Positions 34,820 through 63,420 of a stretch of 64,000 bases of DNA are shown here, one piece after another. The position numbers were made by a program, and so were the translations under genes. The stretch is from NCBI GenBank assembly GCA_013151235.1, contig JAADIO010000022.1, forward strand, positions 1-64,000, in the 5' to 3' direction. Origin of the DNA: Deltaproteobacteria bacterium. GTDB taxonomy: Bacteria > CG2-30-53-67. Numbering within the stretch: the first letter of the stretch is position 1; each line of letters opens with the position of its first letter. The notes under the pieces were generated by a model. It ran no database searches. It was not told where the DNA came from and saw nothing but the letters and a program-made list of their open reading frames with translations.

Positions 34820-34825
34820 TATAAT
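34820..34825 (+). promoter_or_regulatory. Candidate -10 box of the dsrJ-like gene
   Basis: A perfect TATAAT lies 53 bases before the start codon, with only a weak -35 (TTGTTT, 16 bases upstream). A TTGACA at 34740-34745 further upstream has a poor -10. The gene has its own AAGGAG ribosome-binding site. Confidence 0.35.
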
Positions 34826-34878
34826 CAAACCGGTTCGTTACGTCAAAGATATTCGAGCAGGCAGTAAGGAGAAAAGAT

Positions 34879-35268
34879 ATGTACGATTCGGGTAAGGTTC
34901 TCTTGGGAATTATTATCTTTCTGGTCATGGTAACTTTTCCGCTTTACTACAACATCGGAAGAGCCGATATCAAACCGGAGCCCGACCTGAACACCCTCGC
35001 CATACGGAAAATGGCGGTCAAACAGTGCATCGAAAAAACCCCGTACATGCGATCCAACCATATGAAGCTTCTGAAAGGTTGGATGGATGGCTTTCTCAAG
35101 GACGGAACCATGGAGTACAAGGCCGGTAACGGCAAAACATACGAAACCTCTTTCGACACCTGCATGGAATGTCATGCAAGCCGGAAAAAGTTCTGTGACA
35201 CCTGCCACAGCTATGCCGGGGTACAGCCATACTGCTGGAAATGCCATTCCCTGGATGACGAGGGGTGA
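34879..35268 (+). CDS. dsrJ: DsrJ-like triheme c-type cytochrome (orphan)
   Basis: A 129-residue membrane-anchored cytochrome. An uncleaved N-terminal helix (about 7-25) leads to a periplasmic domain with three haem motifs: CMECH (95-99), CDTCH (106-110) and CWKCH (119-123). The region around Cys50 (KQCIEKTPYMRSNHMKLL) is conserved in DsrJ, where a Cys serves as an unusual haem ligand. DsrJ is a subunit of the DsrMKJOP complex, which links membrane quinones to dissimilatory sulfite reduction. Here no dsrM, K, O or P is adjacent: a cNMP pseudogene precedes it and purD follows. It is either relocated, a remnant, or used with other partners. Confidence 0.82.
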   Translation: MYDSGKVLLGIIIFLVMVTFPLYYNIGRADIKPEPDLNTLAIRKMAVKQCIEKTPYMRSNHMKLLKGWMDGFLKDGTMEYKAGNGKTYETSFDTCMECHASRKKFCDTCHSYAGVQPYCWKCHSLDDEG

Positions 35269-50853: not shown

Positions 50854-53067
50854 TCACCGATCGGCATGAGCCCAGGCAACGGCACGGTCGTAGTCCTTAC
50901 CGATCGGCGTGCCGCGATAGTTGATGTTACGAGCGAGCAACGGAACGCCGGCAGGCGTGGTGCGATGGCACGCGCTGCACTCCACGGGTCCGGTGGAACC
51001 ATCCGGGTTGTACTGGACCGCCTGCTGCGGCGACACCTCGTCATTGCCCAGGGGATTGACCGGGAAAAGGCCGTGGGCCGCCTGATGGCACCCCTGGCAG
51101 GTGATCCCGGCATGGGCACTCGAAAAACGCATCAGACTGTATTTCTGTGGTTGATCGACGGGGAAAAAACCACCCCCCATCGATTCCACAAAGGGCGGAG
51201 CGTGACAGTCGGCGCAATGCGGCAGACCCGCTGAAAACCAGTAATCCTTGCTGCCGGAGACATCACCATAAGAGACAGGAACGGCACCGTCCACTGCCGT
51301 TGCCGACACCGTGCCGTCTTTCTTCCGGTACCCGAGCGGTGCCCCTTTGCCCCGCTCCCAGGTAGCTTCGTTCCTGTCCCGCCCCTTCACTACCTTCGGG
51401 TCCAGGTAGCGGTCGATAAGCTGCTGCACGTCACCGCCGGTGAGTACCGCAGCAATTTCCGGGATCGTTTTATTCCGCAATCCCGCTCCCGCGCCCGTCG
51501 CCGTATCGGTCAGCCGGTCCGCCCGGTAAAGGGCAATGGAAAGTCGGTTGTGACAGTGCGTGCAATAGAGCCCCCGGTCCTTGCCCTCCTCATCCCAGAC
51601 GGTATCAAGGTACCATTTCCCGATCGCGTTCAGGTGACTCTTTGTGTGCAGTTCGGCCGCCCGGTACGGGTTTGAGTGGACGTCGCGGCCGGTGTAACTG
51701 CCTGCGGCATCCCGGTTGTCCCCCTTCGCGTACCGGTTGGCGCCATCCCGGGTAACGGGGAAACGATCGAACCGACCCGCATCCGAGTGGGCCGGGTGGC
51801 ACATCTGACAGTTCCCGGGCCGCCCCCCGGCGTCCGGAGCGGGCATCACCTCGGCATGTTTTCTGTGTATCGCCTCGGTCAGCGACAACCGCGCCCGCAC
51901 CTTCGAGTCGGCAATATTGGTCATGGGGCTGTCGTTCATCCGGAGACGACCGATGACGTTATCCGCGTGGCACGAGGGACAGAAAACCGTCTGGCGACCC
52001 AGGCGGTTGAGGCTCGAGTTGTTGCTGTAGTTCCAGGTAAAATGGGTCTGCTCGTCCTTGTCGTGAAGTTCGAGGATGGAAATGGCCGCCGCCTGGGTGG
52101 TGGAGAAATGCTCGGTAGAATCACTGTAGGTCTTCAGCCAATAGCTGTATTCCGCTCGGTACTTCTTCGCCCGGTCGCCGTTCGCACGCTTCGTGCCATG
52201 GCACCGATCACAGGAGGGAGCATCGACGGGGATTACCCCCATGGCGGTCATGACACTGCCGTCACGATCCATCACGAAACGGCCGGCTTTGTCCCGCAAG
52301 GTGATGATCACCCGCTGATAGGGCTGGTACTCCACCTCCTTGCCCGAACGGAGGCTTTTGTTTCCGCGCGAGTAGTCGAGGTAGGGAGTAAGCGGTAACC
52401 CTACGGCATCCCACAGATCAGGCGGAGCGAGGGGGATCGGGATATCGGTCGTGTCGTTTTCTCCGTCAACGAAAAAGCGTACGCCGCTCTCGCCGGTATA
52501 GTGAAGACTACGATCACGCTTCAGAATCGGCGGCCAATCAGTAATGCGCCGGCCGGTGATCCCATGGTCGTCATCGGGAGGGTGGGTATTCCAGACGTAA
52601 ATGCGATCCTTCGCCGTCGCCCCGGCCGGTCGGACGCCATCGGGCCGACCGTAGGTATAATAGGGACGGATGAACTCGACCGGTGGCTGGTCGAAGGGAT
52701 CGAGCCGCTCCCCGTTCCGGTCAACATCATACTTGACCCCCCAGTAGGAAAGCTTGTTGCCGGAGGAATAGGAATTTCCCTGAAAACCGAACTCGGGCTG
52801 CACACCGTCCGTCGGGGTCATCAGTTTCGGCGGCGTCCCGTCCGATCCTTCCGTACGGATTACCTGTACCTGCACGCTGTTAAAGGGAGGCAGGGCGGCC
52901 GTATATTTGAAATCGAAGCTGGTGATGTGCATCCCCAATTCCGAATGGATCAGGATTACATAACGGTGCTGGGGCTCATGGAACTCTTCCAGGGCAGGTG
53001 CCCTAACCGGAAACAACGCAACCATGCCCAGGAACAGCAGGACAATCCTCGTGCAATAAGCGCTCAC
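50854..53067 (-). CDS. Seven-haem secreted c-type cytochrome, paralogue of the giant cytochrome
   Basis: A 737-residue exported protein; the signal peptide ends near RAPALEE (about residue 26). It has seven CxxCH motifs: CDRCH (~286), CPSCH (~363), CQMCH (~420), CTHCH (~502), CADCH (~618), CQGCH (~657) and CSACH (~697). The haem-free N-terminal ~280 residues start with SELGMHITSFDFKYTAALPP, matching the giant cytochrome at 54906-59894. Haem contexts also match (for example CHADNVIGR, PHCADCHAPPFVES, AHGLFPVNPL), and only the giant protein's fifth haem is missing. The GTG start overlaps the prolyl-isomerase stop (GTGA), so the two are coupled. Likely extracellular or outer-surface electron transfer. 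Confidence 0.9.
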   Translation of the reverse strand: MSAYCTRIVLLFLGMVALFPVRAPALEEFHEPQHRYVILIHSELGMHITSFDFKYTAALPPFNSVQVQVIRTEGSDGTPPKLMTPTDGVQPEFGFQGNSYSSGNKLSYWGVKYDVDRNGERLDPFDQPPVEFIRPYYTYGRPDGVRPAGATAKDRIYVWNTHPPDDDHGITGRRITDWPPILKRDRSLHYTGESGVRFFVDGENDTTDIPIPLAPPDLWDAVGLPLTPYLDYSRGNKSLRSGKEVEYQPYQRVIITLRDKAGRFVMDRDGSVMTAMGVIPVDAPSCDRCHGTKRANGDRAKKYRAEYSYWLKTYSDSTEHFSTTQAAAISILELHDKDEQTHFTWNYSNNSSLNRLGRQTVFCPSCHADNVIGRLRMNDSPMTNIADSKVRARLSLTEAIHRKHAEVMPAPDAGGRPGNCQMCHPAHSDAGRFDRFPVTRDGANRYAKGDNRDAAGSYTGRDVHSNPYRAAELHTKSHLNAIGKWYLDTVWDEEGKDRGLYCTHCHNRLSIALYRADRLTDTATGAGAGLRNKTIPEIAAVLTGGDVQQLIDRYLDPKVVKGRDRNEATWERGKGAPLGYRKKDGTVSATAVDGAVPVSYGDVSGSKDYWFSAGLPHCADCHAPPFVESMGGGFFPVDQPQKYSLMRFSSAHAGITCQGCHQAAHGLFPVNPLGNDEVSPQQAVQYNPDGSTGPVECSACHRTTPAGVPLLARNINYRGTPIGKDYDRAVAWAHADR

Positions 53068-54503
53068 TTTTGACCTCCGGAGGATGCCGGCGGCAACGCC
53101 TTACCCCGTTTTGCCGTCGGCAGGGTCACCCGGCCGAACCAGTCCGGATCGATAACGACCTTGTGCTTTTTGCGCAGCTCCGCCAGATAGGGTCCCATAT
53201 TCTTCTTGAAGAAGAATTCATTGTAGTGTTCGCGCTTGTCGCTGTTATTGATCCGTTTCAGGGAAAGCTGCTCCGGTGCGACTCGCTCCAGGGTGCGAAT
53301 GAGATGCCACCCGAGCGGCGATTTCACCGGCCGACTGACCTCTTTTACCTTCAAGGCAAAGGCCGCCTTTTCCAACTCGGGAAGGATCTTCCCCCTCCCT
53401 TTTGTGATCCATCCCAAGACCCCCGAAGTCCGCCCGGCGGACGGATCGATGGAGCGCTCCTGGGCGAGCTTGTAGAAAGGATCGTAGTCCTCGGTAGTCT
53501 CCTTGAGGATCTGCTTGCGCAACGCTTTCGCCTCGGCCCTGGTCTTCACCACGATCTGCTGCAGACGCCGCCGTTCGGGAATGGTAAAGTCCTTCGGATG
53601 TTCCTTGTAGTATTCGGCAAAAGCCTTATCCGTGGGGATATACTTTTTACGCAATTTCGTCACGAGCTGCGCTGCGGTGAGGTCGCGCACAAAGTCGTCG
53701 TGGCGGTGCCGGTAGGTGGGGTCCCGATCGAGGCCGAGGCCGCGTGCCTTGCGTGCCTTGAGAATCTCAACTCCCATGGCAAGAAGTTCGGCACGCCGTT
53801 CCCCCGTACTTTTCTTGTTCTTAAGGCGAGGCCGTGCCCATCGCCAGGTCACCGGCTCGCCTGCAACCGTGGCGATTACCTGCCCCGGCTGTCGCTTATC
53901 GTCATCGTTCAGTGCAATATCGGCATCCTTCACCTCCACCCGGAGCGTCTTTCCCAAACTCTCCGCAAGTTCCTTACGTACCTCGTCGAAACGGCGGGCG
54001 GCAAGCTTGTTACGCATAACCCGGCGCATCTCGGCATCAAGTTTGTTGGCACCATGTTTGGTGTTCTTCTCCTTCTTCCACGCAGCCTCCACCTCTGCAT
54101 CGGTAATCTTGCTGCGTCGGTTGTAGAAGTCACGGGTATAGAGGTCGGCGAGGGTTTGAATCTCCCACGCCTTCAGGCGGGTACGGAATTTTTCGCTCTG
54201 ATCCAGCCCTTCCGACTTTGCCTCAAGATAGAGAAGACGCTGGTTGATGAGATTCGTAAGAAAAGCCTGTTTCACCCGCCGTCCCTGACCGGAGGAGTTA
54301 AGTTGATCCGCGTACGCCTGCAGCGGGGTGGAGTCAATCGCCTGGATCACCTCCCAGTCGTGGATGGCAAGGCCGTCCACGGTGGCGACGACGCCGGATT
54401 CCCCTGCGGGTTTCCCCTTCGCCGCATCGGCTGCAAGGGTCGTGCCGGCAAGGAGTACCAGAAAGGAGAAAAGAAGAGAAACGACGACCGAAAGCTTCTT
54501 CAT
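53064..54503 (-). CDS. Parvulin-type peptidyl-prolyl isomerase (SurA/PpiC family)
   Basis: A 479-residue exported chaperone-isomerase. Signal peptide about 1-24. A SurA-like helical N-terminal part (AFLTNLINQRLLYLEAKSEG, about 90-109) leads to a PPIC domain at about 305-410, with ERRRLQQIVVKTRAEAKALR and GVLGWITKGRGKILPELEKA, ending in KSPLGWHLIRTLERV. It heads the set isomerase, 7-haem cytochrome, SUMF1-like lipoprotein, DUF1573, and is translationally coupled to the cytochrome. It probably folds the proline-rich cytochromes outside the cytoplasm. Confidence 0.9.
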   Translation of the reverse strand: MKKLSVVVSLLFSFLVLLAGTTLAADAAKGKPAGESGVVATVDGLAIHDWEVIQAIDSTPLQAYADQLNSSGQGRRVKQAFLTNLINQRLLYLEAKSEGLDQSEKFRTRLKAWEIQTLADLYTRDFYNRRSKITDAEVEAAWKKEKNTKHGANKLDAEMRRVMRNKLAARRFDEVRKELAESLGKTLRVEVKDADIALNDDDKRQPGQVIATVAGEPVTWRWARPRLKNKKSTGERRAELLAMGVEILKARKARGLGLDRDPTYRHRHDDFVRDLTAAQLVTKLRKKYIPTDKAFAEYYKEHPKDFTIPERRRLQQIVVKTRAEAKALRKQILKETTEDYDPFYKLAQERSIDPSAGRTSGVLGWITKGRGKILPELEKAAFALKVKEVSRPVKSPLGWHLIRTLERVAPEQLSLKRINNSDKREHYNEFFFKKNMGPYLAELRKKHKVVIDPDWFGRVTLPTAKRGKALPPASSGGQK

Positions 54504-54810: not shown

Positions 54811-54835
54811 CCTCTTGATGGTTTCATAATAGACC

Positions 54836-54867
54836 AAAGGGGGTGGACCGTAAGGCCCACCCCCTTT
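54836..54867 (-). terminator. Hairpin terminator of the giant cytochrome gene
   Basis: AAAGGGGGTGG and CCACCCCCTTT form an 11-bp stem around a short loop, 39 bases past the stop codon. The strand past the stem has no strong U-run, so termination may be partial, with some read-through into the isomerase group. Confidence 0.6.
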
Positions 54868-54905
54868 GTGCTGTGGCGGATTGGGACCCGCCGGGTTCAT
54901 AATGT

Positions 54906-57900
54906 TTACGGGTTCGACAAGGCACCCACATGGCAATAACCGCACGAGTTTGTCATCCCCGCAGGCGTGGTATCTCCCGCAGGATCGGGGTCACCGTTTG
55001 CAGCCAGATCGGTCCTCATGGCATCTACGAACTCCGTGGTCACCACGTCGAAGGTATGGGAGTGGATATCCCCCTCACGGTACTGGTTCGAACCATCCGT
55101 GAGGGAGTTCTCCCACCGCGCCGTTTTGGCCGTCTTCGGCATATGGCAGTTGGTGCATCGCCCCATACCGCTACCCACCGGATCATAGGTCATGTAACTC
55201 ATAGTACTGTTCACCCACTTCCCTATGTGACGCATCACCTCGGAGGCGATCGTGGCCTCATCGGTCGGGGTCGTGGTCCCGGCGGCAAGATCATCCGCCA
55301 TCGACTGGGTAACAAACTGGAAGTTCGCAGGATCGGCGCCTTCCAGGCTTTCGTCCGGAGTCGTTTCACCCGCACCCGGTGCTCTGAGGGAACTGTTGTG
55401 ACAACCCAGGCAGAGAGCGTTGTTATCACCGTTGGCAGTGAGCTGATGCTCTTCGACCACACCGGCGGCACTGGGACCGCCATGAGCGTCATGACAGTCG
55501 ATACAGGTCACCATCTCCATGTCGTTCTTGTACATCGTCGTACGCACCACGTCGTAGTACTGCTGGTGGTGGCCCTTCGAATGGTTGAAGGAACCGGTCA
55601 CCTGCGTTACATTCCCCGCCGCAGTAGAAGTCACGAAGGGGTTGGCCGACTCATAACCGATATCCTGCCAGCTATGGTGATCGGTGGTATAGTCGATCGC
55701 CTCCCAGTATCCGCCGACGGTCCCGAAGTCGGGAGCCAGGCCGGTGCCGTCTGCGGTGCCGTAGTACTCGGCGGGACTCATCCCCGGCTTGAAGACCGTA
55801 ATCGCCGGATCGACAGTGAGATCTCCCACGGAAGCGAAGCCCGCATGAGCGCCGCTTGAATCAAGGACGCTGTGACCGTGACCGCGCTGGTGACAGGTGC
55901 CGCAAACCATCGTCAGACGTCCCGGAGTCAGAAGATCCGGCTGGACGATATTGTAGCCCTCGCCGCCGTTTGCCACATGTTCGGAACCCGGACCGTGACA
56001 GCGCTCGCAGCCGATGTTGCCGGCGTAGACGTTGGACGCGACCTGGTCAATGTACTGGGTGATGAAATTGCCGTTGCTATCCTTGGTAATGCCGACACCG
56101 CCGTGGCAGCCGGCGCAGTCAACACCAAAGGACTCGGTGGGTGCACCCGTAGGCGTCGTACCAAGGCCTGCGGGTGTAAAAACGTCGGCACCCATGGTGG
56201 TCGGTGTGGACCACTTACCGGAGAACTCACCGTTCTCCCCGAAGGCAGCGGGGTCGGATCCGGACTCGTTCCACTGGAACGGAGCCGGATAATAATAGGA
56301 GGAACCGCCGGCCTGCACGTGCGCCGTTCCCGGCTCTCCATTGGCGCCGACAAGAAGCATGTAGCGCTGCTTGGCAACTCCCTCACCGCCATAGGTGAAA
56401 GCAACGTTGTACGTAGCCGAAAGGTTCCCGCTGCATGTGGCGTTATCCGCCATCTGCATTGTGGGCGTACCCCCCGAGTAACCCAGCTTGGCGTAATGGG
56501 TGTTGCCCTGGGCGGAGAAGCTAATGCAGTCGCCATTGGCGAATGCCGCCAAGCCACCATCAGCGTTGGCTGCCCAACTCGTCATATCCTGCAGACTGTT
56601 GGCCATCGTATAGCCGGGGTTGGACGGATCCGGAACGCGGAATCCGAGGAAGTGAAGGGTGTGCTTCAGCGAACCCTTCGCATGGCACCCAAGACAGGTA
56701 GACGAACCGACGTAGGTCGCCGAGGTGGACGGTGTCATCGAAATCGTGATGTCACCGAAGGCCGGCATGTTGACTACGTGGCCGTTGACCACCTTGAGAG
56801 TTTCACGCCGAGCCCACGGCAGGTGTGCCGTATCGCTCCCCGCAGGGATGACGCAGGCATAGTAATCACCGTCGGCCAGCGGCACACCATTAAAATTGTA
56901 GCTGCCATCAGCTGCGGTGGTCGCAAAACCGCCGTTGGAATTGGACCCGCCGATCACTGCGTTGGCGACATCCTCAATCGGCTGAATGGAACTGCTCGCC
57001 TCCACATCGGCAGCAGAAACAAAGACCACGGAGGCATTGGCAACCTTCGCCGTGGAGGTATCAACGACCGTACCGTGAAGTGCAAGACCGGTCATATTAT
57101 TGTGATTGGCGCAATCGTCGTTGGCCGGGGCTTCCGGAATCATCGTGCGCCCGTAGCCGAGCGGCAGGCCCAACCCGTTGTCGGTTGCGTTTCGTTCGAC
57201 CGTCGGCAGGGTACTCCTCGCGTCCCGCACGGTATGCATGTAGATCACCGCCAGGTCATAGTTGGTGCCGATCGTTACGCCGTTCACCTTCTTCTTCGCC
57301 GCGACTGTCGGTACACCGCCGTTGTTGGTCACGTGACATGCGCCACAGGTAACGGGACCGTGCGAACCGTTGGCATTATACTGGAGCGCAGCGTTGCGGG
57401 TCGTCGGATCGTTCAGCGGCGACACCGGGTAGAGCCCGTGGGTCGACTCGTGACACGACTGACAGGCGATCCTCTCGTGACCCTTGGAGTGGCGCATGAG
57501 GGCGTACTTGCCGGGCTCGGCCCAGGGCGGATTCATCCCCTGGGACTCGACAAATGGATACGCGTGACAGTCGGCGCAGTGCGGCTCACCCGCAGAGGCC
57601 CAGAAGTCACTCCCGTCGGTCACCACACCGTAGGGGACACCGGGGACAACTTCGCCGCCCATCCCCTTGTACTGGTAGTGGTCATTGGTATCATCAATCA
57701 CCGTCTCACCGCCGAGTTCGGAGGCAATATCCACTGCTTCCTGCTCGGTCAGCGGCGTATCGACACCGCCGAACATCAGGCCTTCGGCCGCAGCGTTCTG
57801 CGTGGCAACCAGGAGGTCTTCAGCCGATTCGCCGGCAATCGCAGGTCCCAGTCCACCGATACCGCCGGCACCGTGGCAGAGATCGCATTCCTTGTCCTCG

Positions 57901-59894
57901 TAGACGTTGGTGCCGCCTGTCGGAGTGACGGTCCGCAGTTTCGGGTCCATGTACTTGGAGGTCAGGTCCGACACGGAGACACCCAGTGCGGCGGCAATCG
58001 ACGGAATCCCCGAATCACGCAGGGTTGAGGTCGCGGGACGCGCCGTCGAACCCGGAATGGTGGGATCGCCGATCCCGGTGTCCGTTTTCCACAGTTCGGA
58101 GGCGAGCCGGTTGTGACAGTTCGTGCAGTAGATTCCCTTGCCGGTGCCCGCATCGACGTTATCCAGGTACCATTGGCCGATGGCGTTCAGGTGGCTGGGC
58201 GTATCGTCCGGCTCGTTGTTACGGTCCATGTTGCCATGAACGTCCCGATTGGTGAAACAGCCCACGGAGTCACGGATGTCCGTCTGGGCGACGGAGGTCA
58301 GCGTCCCCTGGTAGCTGAGCGGGAAGTTGGTCATGTCGCCGTTCTGGGTATGGGCCGGATGGCAGGCCTGGCAGTTGCCGGCGCGGCCGTTGTTATCCGG
58401 CAGCGTACGCTCAACAGCGCCGGAATGACGCATATGGATGGCATAGGTCAGCGCCTGGTTGCCGACATTGTCCCGGCTGGCAGGGTAACGCTCCGCCTCG
58501 GAGGCTGCCGGCACGGACGGAGACTGGTTGTCGCAGAAGCGGTCACCGGCCTGGAAACGGCCTACGATGTTATCTGCGTGACATGACTGACACATCACTG
58601 ATTGCCGACCGAGACGGTTGTTCCCGACACCACTCGGGTCGTAGTTGCCAAGGAAGTTGGTGCCGAAATCGGAATCGTGGATACCGAGCATCCCCACCGC
58701 CGCCGACTTCAGCCGGGCATAATATCCCGTGGCCCCCTGGGCGAGCCAGTAATTATACTCCTGCAAGGCGTGACCACCCGGATCACCCGCGGGAATGGTT
58801 CCGCTGGCGGGATCATAGCCATGACACTTTTCACATGCCGGGGAGTCGATTGGGGCGGTGCCGAAAAACTGCACCGGTGTTCCATCGTGCTGCAGCATCT
58901 GGTTGCCGGTGGAAGCGTTGTACATGTAGACCCACTGCTCCTGAAAGGGCCTGAAATCGCTCTCGGCGATGTCGGTAATGTTTTTGCCCACCACCAGGGA
59001 GTCGTTGAACGGGGTCAGCGCAATGCCGACAACATCCCAAACATCGGCGGTCGTCAGAACCACGGGCACATCGGAGAGACGCATGCCATCGAGGCCGAGA
59101 CCGGCGCCCGCGGCATCAATGATCTTGGTATAGGTATAAACGACCGTCCCCTCATTGCCCACATAGGTGAGGCCTGGACGGCCGAGACCTAAGCCGTTAA
59201 GTGCATCGGCCGACTTGTCCGCAAGCTTGTTGGCCATCGCCCCGAAGGTGGGGCCGTGGTCCTGGGGAATATTGAGGGAGGCACCACCGACAGAGATACG
59301 ATCGGTCGCCAGGGCACCCGCCGCCTTGCCGCCTTCGAGGAAGGGGAGAACGGGCGGATCACCCGGACCGGCACCGCCGGAAACGCCGATGCCGGAGCCG
59401 GCATCCTTCCCGGTAAAGGGATTGTAAGTATAGAGAGAGTCGAACTCAACATTCGACAACATGTCCTCAGGGTCGGTGGTGGTCCCGTTGACGTTCGAGT
59501 CGGGACTACCGTCGGCCCATTTCTCGGTGCCGTTCCCGGCATCATAGGGGACTGTCCAGTAGGCCAGCTTTGCTCCCTCCGAGAAGGAATTGTCCTTGAA
59601 CTCATAGCCGAGCTTAATGTTGTCGGCGGGTGTGAGTTGCTTCGGGTGTGCACCGGTTTTCACCGCCTGCGCCTGGATCGAGTTGAAGGGCGGCAGGACG
59701 CAGCAATAGGAAAAATCAAAACCGGTACAGTGCATCCCCAACTCATAGTTGGTAAAAATGAGATAGTTCTTCTTGGGTGAGTTGAGATGGCGGCCCCGGC
59801 TGCGCCTGCCGCGGGCAACGGCATTCGTCGCCAGCGAGGCGACAAAAAGTACGCCCAGGACCAGCATCAGAATCTGAATGGCTGTCTTACGCAT
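54906..59894 (-). CDS. Giant 16-haem secreted c-type cytochrome
   Basis: A 1662-residue protein starting at 59894, where AAAGGAG lies six bases upstream; signal peptide about 1-28. It has 16 CxxCH motifs at about residues 355, 434, 508, 592, 672, 775, 812, 852, 1067, 1262, 1298, 1334, 1467, 1498, 1582 and 1652. The first ~860 residues match the 7-haem protein at 50854-53067, including NYELGMHCTGFDFSYCCVLP at the N-terminus. Residues ~945-1050 form a haem-free beta domain of carboxypeptidase-regulatory type (HGTVVDTSTAKVANASVVFV, DGSYNFNGVPLADGDYYACV). The last ~600 residues are a second 8-haem module. The gene starts 16 bases after a PEP-CTERM gene. Likely role: surface or extracellular electron transfer. 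No membrane anchor is seen apart from the signal peptide. Confidence 0.93.
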   Translation of the reverse strand: MRKTAIQILMLVLGVLFVASLATNAVARGRRSRGRHLNSPKKNYLIFTNYELGMHCTGFDFSYCCVLPPFNSIQAQAVKTGAHPKQLTPADNIKLGYEFKDNSFSEGAKLAYWTVPYDAGNGTEKWADGSPDSNVNGTTTDPEDMLSNVEFDSLYTYNPFTGKDAGSGIGVSGGAGPGDPPVLPFLEGGKAAGALATDRISVGGASLNIPQDHGPTFGAMANKLADKSADALNGLGLGRPGLTYVGNEGTVVYTYTKIIDAAGAGLGLDGMRLSDVPVVLTTADVWDVVGIALTPFNDSLVVGKNITDIAESDFRPFQEQWVYMYNASTGNQMLQHDGTPVQFFGTAPIDSPACEKCHGYDPASGTIPAGDPGGHALQEYNYWLAQGATGYYARLKSAAVGMLGIHDSDFGTNFLGNYDPSGVGNNRLGRQSVMCQSCHADNIVGRFQAGDRFCDNQSPSVPAASEAERYPASRDNVGNQALTYAIHMRHSGAVERTLPDNNGRAGNCQACHPAHTQNGDMTNFPLSYQGTLTSVAQTDIRDSVGCFTNRDVHGNMDRNNEPDDTPSHLNAIGQWYLDNVDAGTGKGIYCTNCHNRLASELWKTDTGIGDPTIPGSTARPATSTLRDSGIPSIAAALGVSVSDLTSKYMDPKLRTVTPTGGTNVYEDKECDLCHGAGGIGGLGPAIAGESAEDLLVATQNAAAEGLMFGGVDTPLTEQEAVDIASELGGETVIDDTNDHYQYKGMGGEVVPGVPYGVVTDGSDFWASAGEPHCADCHAYPFVESQGMNPPWAEPGKYALMRHSKGHERIACQSCHESTHGLYPVSPLNDPTTRNAALQYNANGSHGPVTCGACHVTNNGGVPTVAAKKKVNGVTIGTNYDLAVIYMHTVRDARSTLPTVERNATDNGLGLPLGYGRTMIPEAPANDDCANHNNMTGLALHGTVVDTSTAKVANASVVFVSAADVEASSSIQPIEDVANAVIGGSNSNGGFATTAADGSYNFNGVPLADGDYYACVIPAGSDTAHLPWARRETLKVVNGHVVNMPAFGDITISMTPSTSATYVGSSTCLGCHAKGSLKHTLHFLGFRVPDPSNPGYTMANSLQDMTSWAANADGGLAAFANGDCISFSAQGNTHYAKLGYSGGTPTMQMADNATCSGNLSATYNVAFTYGGEGVAKQRYMLLVGANGEPGTAHVQAGGSSYYYPAPFQWNESGSDPAAFGENGEFSGKWSTPTTMGADVFTPAGLGTTPTGAPTESFGVDCAGCHGGVGITKDSNGNFITQYIDQVASNVYAGNIGCERCHGPGSEHVANGGEGYNIVQPDLLTPGRLTMVCGTCHQRGHGHSVLDSSGAHAGFASVGDLTVDPAITVFKPGMSPAEYYGTADGTGLAPDFGTVGGYWEAIDYTTDHHSWQDIGYESANPFVTSTAAGNVTQVTGSFNHSKGHHQQYYDVVRTTMYKNDMEMVTCIDCHDAHGGPSAAGVVEEHQLTANGDNNALCLGCHNSSLRAPGAGETTPDESLEGADPANFQFVTQSMADDLAAGTTTPTDEATIASEVMRHIGKWVNSTMSYMTYDPVGSGMGRCTNCHMPKTAKTARWENSLTDGSNQYREGDIHSHTFDVVTTEFVDAMRTDLAANGDPDPAGDTTPAGMTNSCGYCHVGALSNP

Positions 59895-59910: not shown

Positions 59911-60843
59911 TTACACATGGTGCCCTCCTTTCCCACCTGCACGACGACGAAGCCCCAACAGGCCGAAAAGCCCGGTCGCCAGGAAGACGAGGGACGAAGG
60001 CTCGGGAACCATTGCCGTGGTGGTAAGGGCGTTAAGATTGTCGCTCGACAACAGACCCAGGTCCGCGGCCGTGATGGCGACATTCGAGGTGTTGTTCAGA
60101 AAAAGGTCCGCGGCCGATCCGTAGCCGGAGGCGGAAGCCAGCGAAAACAGAACATCTCCCGTAACAGCATCAATGGCCAGCGCGTCTAAGTCCTGTCCCT
60201 GCTCAATACCAAGCGACGCGGCAGTCCGGAAGATGTTACCAAGACTGTTGAGATAGATGTTCCCATCACCGGCAAGGGAGAAGTAGACATCCCCGTCCTG
60301 ACCCGGAACATAAGGTGCGGCACCGAGATCCACGGCATCGAGATCATCATTGTTCTGTCCGTAAGCGCTATCGTTCAGACCGTAGTCCTCACCATAAGTA
60401 TCCGCAAAGTTGACCCCCGCAAGCTGGCCCGGGTTGGCGTCGAAAAGCGTCCCCATCTGCCGACTGGTCGAGGCCTTCCATGCCACGTCCGTGCCCGAAG
60501 CGCCCTGGCTGTTCGCATCCACCGAGAAATAGACGTCGTAGATGCTTGCGGGATCAGCACTGTCAAACCCGAAGGAGAGGGCGTCGATCTCGTCGGCCGC
60601 GGACAATCCGAGATCGGCCGGCGTCAACGCCACGGTGTTGGTGCCGTCGAGCGGCGTATCGAAGAGATGGGCGCCGTCCGGACTGGTGCTGTATACGTCA
60701 TTAGGCATATTCGTTCCGGGAGCAACGCCGATCCCGTCATTGAGCACCGAGAAGGTGTCGGCCCGGCCGATCGCCGGAAGAGCGAAGATACAAATCATTG
60801 AGACAACCGCCAGAAGGCGGAGCCTTAACCCATAACATTTCAT
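59911..60843 (-). CDS. PEP-CTERM sorting domain protein (directly upstream of the giant cytochrome)
   Basis: A 310-residue exported protein with signal peptide (about 1-29) and a C-terminal PEP-CTERM signal: VPEPSS, a hydrophobic stretch (LVFLATGLFGLLGL) and RRRAGGK. The mature part has about four repeats pairing a DLDAL-like motif (LSAADEIDALSF, NNDDLDAVDLG, GQDLDALAID, SSDNLNALTT) with a DVYFS-like strand. An exosortase (not in the window) should cleave the tail. The GGGGG-rich leader is shared with the other two PEP-CTERM genes. It ends 16 bases before the cytochrome start, so the two are cotranscribed. Confidence 0.92.
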   Translation of the reverse strand: MKCYGLRLRLLAVVSMICIFALPAIGRADTFSVLNDGIGVAPGTNMPNDVYSTSPDGAHLFDTPLDGTNTVALTPADLGLSAADEIDALSFGFDSADPASIYDVYFSVDANSQGASGTDVAWKASTSRQMGTLFDANPGQLAGVNFADTYGEDYGLNDSAYGQNNDDLDAVDLGAAPYVPGQDGDVYFSLAGDGNIYLNSLGNIFRTAASLGIEQGQDLDALAIDAVTGDVLFSLASASGYGSAADLFLNNTSNVAITAADLGLLSSDNLNALTTTAMVPEPSSLVFLATGLFGLLGLRRRAGGKGGHHV

Positions 60844-60915
60844 AATGTTTCCCCCTTGTATGATGTCATTCCCCTGCAATAATCCCGCCGGGAGCGAATG
60901 CCTCCGGCTTCCCCC

Positions 60916-60952
60916 TTTCCGGCAGGCAGCAGATTTGTGAACCTGCCGGAAA
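60916..60952 (-). promoter_or_regulatory. Leader hairpin and shared PEP-CTERM leader motif, copy 1
   Basis: TTTCCGGCAGG and CCTGCCGGAAA form a perfect 11-bp stem with a 15-base loop in the leader of the gene at 59911-60843. Its 3' side overlaps a motif found in all three PEP-CTERM leaders (AAATTCCTGTCSGCA, then an A/G-rich run). No sigma-54 promoter is visible in the 287-base spacer, so this gene may be transcribed from the one upstream of the 61131-61952 gene. Confidence 0.45.
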
Positions 60953-61130
60953 CATAACGTAAAATTGAACCATTGTAAAAGTACGATTTATGTTGGAACC
61001 ATTTTGTCGGTCATTCTTCACCCCCCTCATATTTAGATGATCACGATATTTGACTTCAACTTCCGCAGCAAATCTTATGAATCACCCCCTTTCCCGATAT
61101 AAGATCATTTTGCCCATTTGCCGTAAGCCG

Positions 61131-61952
61131 TCACACCCCGCGACGACGAAAGAAGACCGCAAGTCCTGCCAGACCGCTTCCCAACAGCACCAGCGAGCCG
61201 GGCTCGGGAACCGTCGCAAGCTGGAGTTCAAGAACCATCTGGTAAGAGAGAGTATCGAACCCACTTCCCGGCATCCGATTGCCCGTGGCGACAAGACGCA
61301 GGCTCTGACCGTCAAAGGGACGGCCGTCCACCTTGTAGGCGAAGTTGTAACTGCCATTGGTCGGAGAGGTCCACGGGGCGGTCCAGAGACGTAAGGGCAT
61401 ACTGTTATCCAGACCGGTGTTCTGCGGGATGAAGACGGCGTTATTCATCACCACGTGCATCTCGCCGTCACCGGTCACCGTGCCGCCCGGCTCGAAGAAA
61501 CTATTCCACGGAATGGTATACTGGTTGGCGTCGCCGGTCTCAGTGGAGTGGTCGCGGAAGTCGACCGTCCCAAGCAGTGTTCCCGGGACCGTATCCGGCA
61601 GGAAGGTGTCCGCAGGAATCGTCACCGTCGTACCCCCTCCGCTGATTACAATATCCATCGTGCCGCCCGGAATCGCCCATTCCAGGGAATGCTGGAAGTT
61701 AAAGCTACTCCCCGTGTCTCCACCGTTATATGGATCACTTGCGATTCCATCCACACTCCCCGGAACGATGTTGAAGTGGTAGGTACCGTCGGTCCAGGCG
61801 ACCGGCGTGGCATGGGCAGGGACAACCGCCAAGATGAAGAATAGCCCGAAGACAACGGCGACCGCCGCTGTTTTTAAGTGTTGAATGATGATGGTGTGCC
61901 GCCACACCGGAACCTCCGCCGACAGGCGGAGTTTCCCCTTGCAAAGATTCAT
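61131..61952 (-). CDS. PEP-CTERM sorting domain protein
   Basis: A 273-residue exported protein. A long N-region (about 27 residues) precedes the signal hydrophobic core (about 28-48, ending AHA). The C-terminus is VPEPGS, a hydrophobic helix LVLLGSGLAGLAVFF, then RRRGV. The mature domain is beta-rich with SFNFQHSLEWAIPGGTMDIV and NAVFIPQNTGLDNSMPLRLW; I do not recognise it beyond the sorting signal. A GGGGGGAAG site precedes the ATG. A sigma-54 promoter lies about 300 bases upstream. Confidence 0.92.
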   Translation of the reverse strand: MNLCKGKLRLSAEVPVWRHTIIIQHLKTAAVAVVFGLFFILAVVPAHATPVAWTDGTYHFNIVPGSVDGIASDPYNGGDTGSSFNFQHSLEWAIPGGTMDIVISGGGTTVTIPADTFLPDTVPGTLLGTVDFRDHSTETGDANQYTIPWNSFFEPGGTVTGDGEMHVVMNNAVFIPQNTGLDNSMPLRLWTAPWTSPTNGSYNFAYKVDGRPFDGQSLRLVATGNRMPGSGFDTLSYQMVLELQLATVPEPGSLVLLGSGLAGLAVFFRRRGV

Positions 61953-62031
61953 AAACTTCCCCCCTATGATGTCATTCCCCTATAAAACGGTCTTGAACAA
62001 TCGCGCCCGAGGCATCCGCCCCCGGCCCCCC

Positions 62032-62121
62032 TTTTTCTGCGGACAGGAATTTGCAACCCTTTCAGATGACAATCATCAACGGCTCCCAATTCCCGTCATT
62101 AGATCGACTGGGTACCTCCTT
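62032..62121 (-). promoter_or_regulatory. Shared PEP-CTERM leader, copy 2
   Basis: In transcript sense this leader of the 61131-61952 gene holds AAGGAGGT (62121-62114) and then AAATTCCTGTCCGCAGAAAA (62052-62033) followed by a G-rich stem. The same two elements occur in the leader of the 62542-63420 gene, and the second also at 60916-60952. AAGGAGGT has no good start codon nearby in this copy. The role is unknown; a leader RNA element is possible. Confidence 0.4.
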
Positions 62122-62250
62122 TCTTCAATACGAACTAAAACGTCTCCATTTTCATGTTCCTCAGGCTGCAGCACGAATCACTCCCCCCCGGTTTGATACT
62201 GCACGCCACGATCGGCCGGAACTTTATGCGGCCATATACAGCAGCATATT

Positions 62251-62266
62251 GCAGGTTACATGCCAA
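62251..62266 (-). promoter_or_regulatory. Sigma-54 promoter, PEP-CTERM gene at 61131-61952
   Basis: The complement reads TGGCATG-TAAC-CTGCA, close to the sigma-54 consensus TGGCACG-N4-TTGCW. Transcription would start near 62240, leaving a leader of about 290 bases. It shares GGCAYGNAACCTGCW with the promoter at 63633-63648. Confidence 0.75.
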
Positions 62267-62376
62267 TTCTACCCAATGAGCGGCCAGAACAAATAAAAAG
62301 ATAACATGATGAAAAGAAGGGACTTATTTCGGAGCAAGACAGCCCGTCAACCGGTTATGCAGGTATTCGATAGCGT

Positions 62377-62422
62377 GAATATATGAAATAATTTTCCTTT
62401 TTTGTGAAAAGATTTTCCCACT
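62377..62422. promoter_or_regulatory. Conserved upstream activator-like element, copy A
   Basis: A 46-bp AT-rich element with GAATATATGAAAT followed by a palindrome GTGAAAAGATTTTCCCAC. It lies 111 bp upstream of the sigma-54 promoter of the gene at 61131-61952. Copy B at 63764-63808 is at nearly the same distance (116 bp) from the other sigma-54 promoter. It is a good candidate enhancer for a sigma-54 activator. Confidence 0.65.
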
Positions 62423-62468
62423 ATTTGTGCGGATGCACGATTGTGCGGGCTCCACAACGGATGCAGAC

Positions 62469-62502
62469 AAAACAAAGGGGGCCGGCCCGAAGGCCCGCCC
62501 CC
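62469..62502 (-). terminator. Rho-independent terminator of the PEP-CTERM gene at 62542-63420
   Basis: In transcript sense GGGGGCGGGCC and GGCCGGCCCCC pair around TTCG, and TTTGTTTTG follows. It begins 40 bases after the stop codon, so this gene is probably monocistronic. Confidence 0.85.
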
Positions 62503-62541
62503 TGATTCTCTCAGATCCTCAATACGCAAGCGACCGGAGCA

Positions 62542-63420
62542 TTATGCACCGGCGGCCTTTACGGAACGATGATGACGCCGGTGGAGACCGGCGAGAACCG
62601 GCAGGAAGGATGCGATCAGGAAAAAAGAGGAGGGCTCGGGTACGGCAGCGGCGCTGACCCGGATATTGTCCACGATCAGGCCGGTGTCGAAGCTCCCGTC
62701 CCCCTCATCTCCGACAAAAAATTCCAGGGTGTAGTCGCCGGCGCCCAGGATAGAACTGGTGACCGTCTGGAACCCGCCGAGATAGGTCCCGTCGTAAAAG
62801 CTGCTCGCCGGAAGTGTGGGATCGCTGGTCGTCCAGGAAATGCCGCTGAAGTCACCGGCGTATAGCGGTGCAAAGGAACCATCGTTGTAGCCGTCGTCCA
62901 AGGAGCACTGAACCAGGGAGATCGGAGCGCCCGCGGCAGGCAGGAGGCGGATCTCGGCGATATCGGCAAGGCCGGCGGTACTCCATCCATCGAACTCACT
63001 GGTAGCAATAGTCCAGTCGAGAGCCAGAGTGGAGGGGGCCGTAAGCGTAAAAGACTGGCTCAAAGTGGCGATGTCGAACTCGTCGGCGCCGCTTCCGTCC
63101 CGGTCAAACCCCGAATCCACACCCGGCGGCATCCCGTTCACAAAGCTGTCGGGACTGGTCGATAGGAGCGCAAACCAACTGCCGTCGGTTGCCAAATAGC
63201 CGGTCTGACCACTAATATTTTTATCCGGGCTATGGTAGTCGGGGTTGATCCGCTGGACGTTGCCGGAAGCGGTCCAGCCGGACAGGTCGGTTTCAAAAGA
63301 AAGGTTGGTGAGCCCCGTAGCGAAGGCCGCCGCCGGGACGAACAGACAGAAAACTGCGATCACCGCCATCCAGCGGAGTACGACATTCCGAATCTTTAGT
63401 TTTATACTGTATAACTTCAT
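62542..63420 (-). CDS. PEP-CTERM sorting domain protein
   Basis: A 292-residue exported protein with signal peptide (about 14-35, ending AAAFA) and a C-terminal VPEPSS-FFLIASFLPVLAGL-HRRHHR sorting signal. The mature domain begins LTNLSFETDLSGWTASGNVQ, typical of carbohydrate-binding-like jellyroll modules in surface proteins, and includes LALDWTIATSEFDGW and GDYTLEFFVGDEGDGSFDTG near the end. It has its own sigma-54 promoter and terminator. It is likely anchored, modified or released at the surface by an exosortase. Confidence 0.92.
   Translation of the reverse strand: MKLYSIKLKIRNVVLRWMAVIAVFCLFVPAAAFATGLTNLSFETDLSGWTASGNVQRINPDYHSPDKNISGQTGYLATDGSWFALLSTSPDSFVNGMPPGVDSGFDRDGSGADEFDIATLSQSFTLTAPSTLALDWTIATSEFDGWSTAGLADIAEIRLLPAAGAPISLVQCSLDDGYNDGSFAPLYAGDFSGISWTTSDPTLPASSFYDGTYLGGFQTVTSSILGAGDYTLEFFVGDEGDGSFDTGLIVDNIRVSAAAVPEPSSFFLIASFLPVLAGLHRRHHRSVKAAGA

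Follow-up and report, generated by a model that had tools for sequence, protein, structure and literature searches.

The window analysed here, a stretch of 64,000 nucleotides in all, comes from a bacterium of a little-sampled phylum. On its minus strand a reading frame that is open throughout from 59894 to 54906 encodes a 1662-residue protein with 16 CxxCH motifs, eight of them starting at residues 354-850 and eight at residues 1067-1651, as the first-pass annotation had claimed. Shuffling the same residues 2000 times gave a mean of 0.04 such motifs and a maximum of two. The start of the 1662-residue form has good support from a Shine-Dalgarno sequence 5 nt before the ATG (AAAGGAG-cttcc-ATG). 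Only three frames of at least 80 codons with at least two CxxCH motifs are present in the 64-kb window, namely this gene, the gene at 50854-53067 and a small plus-strand frame; a short frame at 34825-35265 (+) contains three CxxCH motifs. The features of the locus, all on the minus strand, are as follows.

54906..59894, minus: whole gene, 1662 aa, 16 CxxCH motifs, with its ATG start codon at 59894
59796..59894, minus: Sec-type signal peptide, residues 1-33 (..LATNAVA-RG), with no lipobox, read directly from the sequence; helix 2-33 in the model
59700..59744, minus: signature ELGMHC...YCC, residues 51-65, with M54, H55, C56, C64 and C65 kept in 97-99% of 97 aligned rows
58842..59771, minus: haem-free N-terminal beta domain, residues ~42-351, from predicted strands and weak Ig/beta-sandwich matches
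57234..58835, minus: haem module 1, residues 354-887, with seven family haems (His 358, 439, 512, 594, 777, 815, 854) and one private motif, from the alignment and from Pfam (Cytochrome_C7 and the MtrC/F II-IV domain)
57873..57887, minus: extra CDLCH, residues 670-674, in a private insert; motif column empty in the other 96 aligned rows
57084..57218, minus: junction or inter-module linker, residues 893-937, predicted disordered (pLDDT ~26-32; below 50 also in the N-module model)
56730..57077, minus: carboxypeptidase-regulatory / transthyretin-like domain, residues 940-1055, from the CarboxypepD_reg score, a fold match and pLDDT ~90
54909..56729, minus: haem module 2, residues 1056-1662, an OcwA-like octahaem module (His 1071, 1264, 1300, 1335, 1468, 1499, 1584, 1655), from profile, fold and alignment
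56268..56606, minus: beta insert in module 2 (residues ~1097-1209), placed between its first and second haems, from predicted strands
55560..55571, minus: HHQQ, residues 1442-1445, which may form the distal pocket of haem 2 in module 2; the first His and the QQ are nearly invariant
54835..54868, minus: terminator-like 15-bp hairpin past the stop codon, from the sequence
53064..54503, minus: PpiC-type peptidyl-prolyl isomerase (PPIase), the usual neighbour of the N-module family, from neighbourhood comparison
50854..53067, minus: seven-haem N-module paralogue, with a 4-bp overlap with the PPIase gene, from CxxCH count and neighbourhood

The signal peptide is presumably cleaved after residue 33, and the hairpin may mark a transcription end ahead of the PPIase gene. 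Structures were predicted for two overlapping parts of the protein, residues 1-940 and 474-1662.

The N-terminal half is a member of a widespread family of heptahaem proteins of ~800 aa, with the signature ELGMHC...CC, which we define in this analysis as the ELGMHC heptahaem family. A scan of 84,980 species genomes with the N half left 80 kept loci, at 35-38% identity, in Gammaproteobacteria (methanotrophs, sulfur oxidisers and tubeworm symbionts), Betaproteobacteria, Nitrospinota, Saprospiraceae and Calditrichaeota; the matches span residues 1-919 at most and nearly all of them stop near 887-890. Nearly all of these proteins are ~760-880 aa long and have exactly seven CxxCH motifs. When aligned, seven CxxCH columns at fixed spacing are filled in 97 of 97 rows, the N half from the window included, and further histidines outside the motifs (487, 490, 515, 553, 772, 806, 819 and others) are also invariant. 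The eight-plus-eight symmetry noted in the first-pass annotation is therefore correct as a count of motifs per half but not in its family meaning: the arrangement is really 7+1+8, because the CDLCH motif sits in an insert that is absent from the other rows. The first ~350 residues were rightly described there as having no haem motif, and they additionally contain a predicted beta-sandwich domain (~42-351), which precedes the haem domain in the model of residues 1-940 (pTM 0.71, pLDDT 63). Fold matches to this domain are weak and Ig-like, the MtrC beta domain being among them at Z 2.2, and in a second fold comparison (VIA) no haem protein matched the N module above Z 2.2. Two thirds of the family rows are without a lipobox, as judged with a simple motif. 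The branch of the window row in the family tree is long and joins others that are long too, so its exact position is not to be trusted.

We found no curated model for the heptahaem family: Pfam offers the generic Cytochrome_C7 and a marginal MtrC/F II-IV match, and no NCBIfam model scored above its cut-off. A literature search for the family found nothing relevant. The surface cytochromes of Methylococcus capsulatus (MCA0421, MCA0424-0433), described in PMC6281684 and PMC4831470 as repressed by copper and, for one of them, as a contributor to current, were considered as possible members of the same family from these published descriptions; MCA0421 is described as belonging to the cytochrome c553o family. 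The locus brings into view a family of broad distribution, with 80 loci from named genomes in several phyla, an invariant ELGMHC...CC and no curated Pfam or NCBIfam model that we could find.

The C-terminal half belongs to a different family, whose members are normally stand-alone exported proteins of 640-900 aa, often lipoproteins, that have an Ig-like domain at their own N terminus. Among eight genomes sampled from the phylum, it was seen elsewhere only in two: G006, from a sister class, where identity is 65% starting at residue 939, and G007, where it lies on two contig pieces. In both genomes the gene is separate and encodes a lipobox (LTGC), a short linker, a CarboxypepD_reg-like domain and then eight haems, and directly downstream lies a gene for an outer-membrane beta-barrel (a judgement from sequence, with no Pfam match), beside which G007 additionally has a gene for a 13-haem lipoprotein. 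A profile search of 386 genomes turned up remoter members in other phyla, again as stand-alone proteins; several carry a lipobox, and one ends in a type IX secretion tail. Thus searching with the C half alone did recover a stand-alone family, both in sister genomes and in other phyla.

A crystallised relative of this family is OcwA, the nonahaem cell-surface terminal reductase of Thermincola potens (PDB 6I5B). The single full-length protein used as a query gave no OcwA match, whereas the profile of twelve C-family sequences (A4; the wider combined alignment of the C family was used in trimmed form) matched OcwA (6i5b_A) with E=7.8e-26. This alignment is in register at YVGS..C..CH at haem 1, at haems 2-4, at HHQQ and at the CxxCHMPKTA haem. 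When 724 chains were re-aligned to the junction model, OcwA came first (Z 5.4, 319 residues, 21% identity), but with an rmsd of 8.5 and on a low-confidence model; neither model had a Foldseek match in the PDB at E<=0.001. OcwA has nine haems, of which haems 2 and 5 are open under the His-His pairs HH281/282 and HH380/381; it is related to NrfA, c554 and MccA, reduces solids, shuttles and oxyanions (nitrite and hydroxylamine in vitro), and shares with MccA an additional beta-sheet domain within the haem domain (PMC6703420). The pairs occur at SEQRES 252/253 and 351/352, which fits a numbering offset of 29, and with that offset assumed the first pair aligns with the family HHQQ (1442-1445 in the window protein), while a single conserved His stands in the place of the second. 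We read the C half as OcwA-like, with haem 2 at His1264 as the one candidate for an open haem, which may bind substrate beneath the HHQQ pocket. Common to both are haems 1-4, the His-His pair above haem 2, a beta insert inside the haem domain and the late CxxCHMPKTA haem. In contrast to the C half, OcwA has nine haems rather than eight and, at its other open haem, a further His-His pair, and unlike the fusion it has no N-terminal Ig-like domain, no fused heptahaem module and a Gram-positive host. No relevant papers on OcwA homologues or fusions came up in a literature search.

Between the two haem modules, the first-pass annotation had placed a haem-free domain resembling carboxypeptidase-regulatory (Ig-like) modules and had viewed it as a rigid linker. 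The domain itself is borne out: a search with this region alone gave a weak but specific score to CarboxypepD_reg at E=1.4e-4 (below the gathering cut-off), 8 of 12 C-half relatives match the same model, and the predicted fold of residues 940-1055 superposes on the transthyretin-like domain of carboxypeptidase D over 77 residues, at Z 5.3 and an rmsd of 2.6. Its role as a rigid linker is not, since stand-alone members of the C family already carry the Ig-like domain; it is the native N-terminal domain of that family, inherited with the C half rather than made as a linker. The true junction is residues 893-937, predicted to be disordered; it follows H887, the last ligand conserved in the N module, and homology to the C family sets in after it, at ~940. 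The model that spans it (residues 474-1662) has a pTM of 0.51 and a pLDDT of 53.

The finding of each half alone in other genomes upholds the view of this protein as a fusion of two cytochrome modules. One may consider that both halves are copies of one eight-haem module, in the manner of MtrC domains II and IV. Each half does have eight motifs, the layout alternates beta, haem, beta and haem as in MtrC, and both halves score with the Pfam MtrC/F II-IV model (31.2 bits for the N half, barely above the cut-off of 30, and 20 bits for the C half). Yet alignment of the N profile to the C profile is weak (probability 41, 150 columns), on which ground we rejected internal duplication; in addition the halves belong to separate families with differing haem spacing, and in the N half the eighth motif has no counterpart among the other aligned rows. 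We regard such a duplication as highly improbable.

Alternatively, two genes might have been mis-joined in frame during assembly or binning. The same fusion was not found in any of the 80 N-half loci, nor in the 386 genomes searched with each profile, and the genome is a draft of 73 contigs. Against this, the contig is 112.6 kb long, there are no Ns in the window, GC and GC3 are similar along the gene, and the in-frame join falls at domain borders. Moreover, in the sister genome G002 an N-module cytochrome (nine haems), a PPIase and a seven-haem cytochrome follow in the same order as in the window, without the C half. Since the C half lies inside this otherwise conserved order, with the partner genes of the N module beyond it, an artefact would need two mis-joins, and we give this explanation very little credence. 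N modules of relatives also have add-ons, namely two extra haems in G001, G002 and G004 and a monohaem cytochrome c in G006; together with the OcwA-like module, these C-terminal additions of sister genomes form a natural series bearing on the partner of the N module. The G006 protein (L121:5866-9717) has a lipobox, an N-terminal extension and its monohaem cytochrome c (PF13442) attached through a Thr/Gly-rich linker.

A fusion of comparable layout, with 13 haems, is found in G216 (L147:3750-7397), where a C-family octahaem module is followed by a second CarboxypepD_reg-type domain and then a further haem module. It differs in that the second module is a five-haem c7-like one, not of the heptahaem family, and stands at the C terminus. 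Because this fusion exists, two haem modules split by a CarboxypepD_reg-type domain are not unique to the window. The protein is a real and, it appears, rare fusion in which cytochromes of two known kinds are joined; its parts and general layout have precedents. The same locus of G216 (L147:814-11998) is a cluster of multihaem genes (4, 12, 13, 22 and 4 CxxCH) with a possible barrel.

As to function, our preferred reading, held with moderate confidence, is that of an exported electron-transfer protein, probably at the cell surface, which joins a heptahaem ELGMHC protein to an unrelated OcwA-like octahaem cytochrome. The C module would give electrons to, or take them from, an extracellular partner or an outer-membrane conduit of the organism, and the N module would be its physically tethered electron partner; we infer both the electron flow between the modules and its direction. 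A location on the outer surface is probable judging only from the relatives of the C half, which are lipoproteins or lie beside a barrel. The fusion protein has no lipobox, and among the adjacent genes that were read none encodes an outer-membrane barrel, both of which speak against the surface reading. The window genome does encode a barrel elsewhere, on contig G000:C1, that is 27% identical to the G006 barrel and has no C module adjoining it, and the fused C module could serve this conduit. The gene extends OcwA-like surface reductases, whose structure is known from a Gram-positive, to a Gram-negative-type lineage with porin partners, and it shows that an OcwA-like module can occur covalently joined to another cytochrome.

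The neighbourhood of the heptahaem family has to be weighed here as well. Across phyla, the heptahaem gene is followed by a PPIase gene and then often by a redoxin gene: of the 37 loci with 5 kb or more of sequence on the downstream side, 30 have a PPIase there and 24 an AhpC/TSA redoxin. These neighbours and the conserved Cys motif are hints of thiol or metal chemistry in the maturation or function of the heptahaem protein. At about 13 of the 37 well-flanked loci there are NapC/NirT-type genes near the family gene, and no obvious barrel lies beside those inspected, a picture that, with most rows lacking a lipobox, would also fit a periplasmic enzyme. The serious rival is therefore a periplasmic two-domain reductase with no surface location, in which the N module is a terminal reductase fed by NapC and the OcwA-like module adds a second domain, catalytic or electron-feeding. 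The resemblance of OcwA to NrfA, c554 and MccA and its reduction of oxyanions (PMC6703420) accord with this, as does the absence of a lipobox, and the PPIase and redoxin genes next door could encode maturation factors. On the other hand, no NapC gene was seen beside the window gene, and the relatives of the C module include several lipoproteins and one protein with a type IX secretion tail, the close ones adjoining an outer-membrane barrel. We consider the periplasmic reductase unlikely, though clearly the strongest of the alternatives to a surface electron-transfer fusion.

A bolder form of the surface reading is that the protein is a self-contained two-headed device, in which a heptahaem reductase family not described before, with a conserved Met-His-Cys/Cys-Cys site, is hard-wired to an OcwA-like terminal reductase. 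We think this rather improbable; were it true, one polypeptide would couple two extracellular redox substrates without a separate shuttle. Even less probable, in our estimate, is an extracellular wire of the OmcS/OmcE kind, with the N module as a filament unit and the C module as its cap or terminal reductase. The protein is haem-rich and exported, and a PPIase neighbour is also known from the Uet cluster (PMC10734462), but 1662 residues for 16 haems amount to 104 aa per haem, which is not wire-like, the beta domains are large, and Pfam and NCBIfam scans gave no match to a filament-cytochrome family.

The fused protein can also be compared with other large multihaem systems. It shares with the decahaem outer-membrane cytochromes MtrC, OmcA and UndA the alternation of beta and haem domains, and differs from them in having 16 rather than 10 haems, a C half that is OcwA-like and by score not MtrC-like, and no lipobox. 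The whole protein had no match at E<=1 to TIGR03507 (MtrC/OmcA decahaem), with which the nearest C-half relative scored 21.7 bits against a cut-off of 209; the scores were 32.4 against 192 bits for TIGR03508 (DmsE/MtrA decahaem) and 40.4 against 325 for NF041028 (GSU2203 decahaem). The PCC3 cytochromes of Fe(II)-oxidiser porin-cytochrome clusters have low-complexity repeats, 10-60 haems, a low residue-to-haem ratio and an adjacent porin (PMC5566968). Our protein is like them very large, exported and multihaem, and its genome also has a porin-cytochrome conduit; membership was rejected, given the residues per haem, the lack of PCC3-type repeats and the lack of a barrel among the adjacent genes read. 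The hexadecahaem HmcA of sulfate reducers likewise has sixteen haems but is of a different family, and identity with it was rejected, the full protein having no NCBIfam match at E<=1.

Several other observations were made around these genes. In the paralogue at 50854-53067 the three conserved Cys of ELGMHC...CC are gone (ELGMHITSFDFKYTAAL), with the Met and His kept, and this gene has a 4-bp overlap also with the next one, an FGE/SUMF1-like lipoprotein identified by eye. Directly upstream of the cytochrome, at 59911-63420 (-), lie three predicted exported proteins with PEP-CTERM-like C termini. The conduit of the window genome itself (L149, G000:C1:22000-34893) consists of consecutive genes for a beta-barrel, a five-haem and a 17-haem lipoprotein; a gene on the opposite strand encodes a protein made of four class-I cytochrome-like repeats. 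The same type of barrel is found in G003 (L148:6382-8700) and G005 (L111) with a C-terminal tail of four CxxCH motifs in one ORF, i.e. as a barrel-cytochrome fusion.
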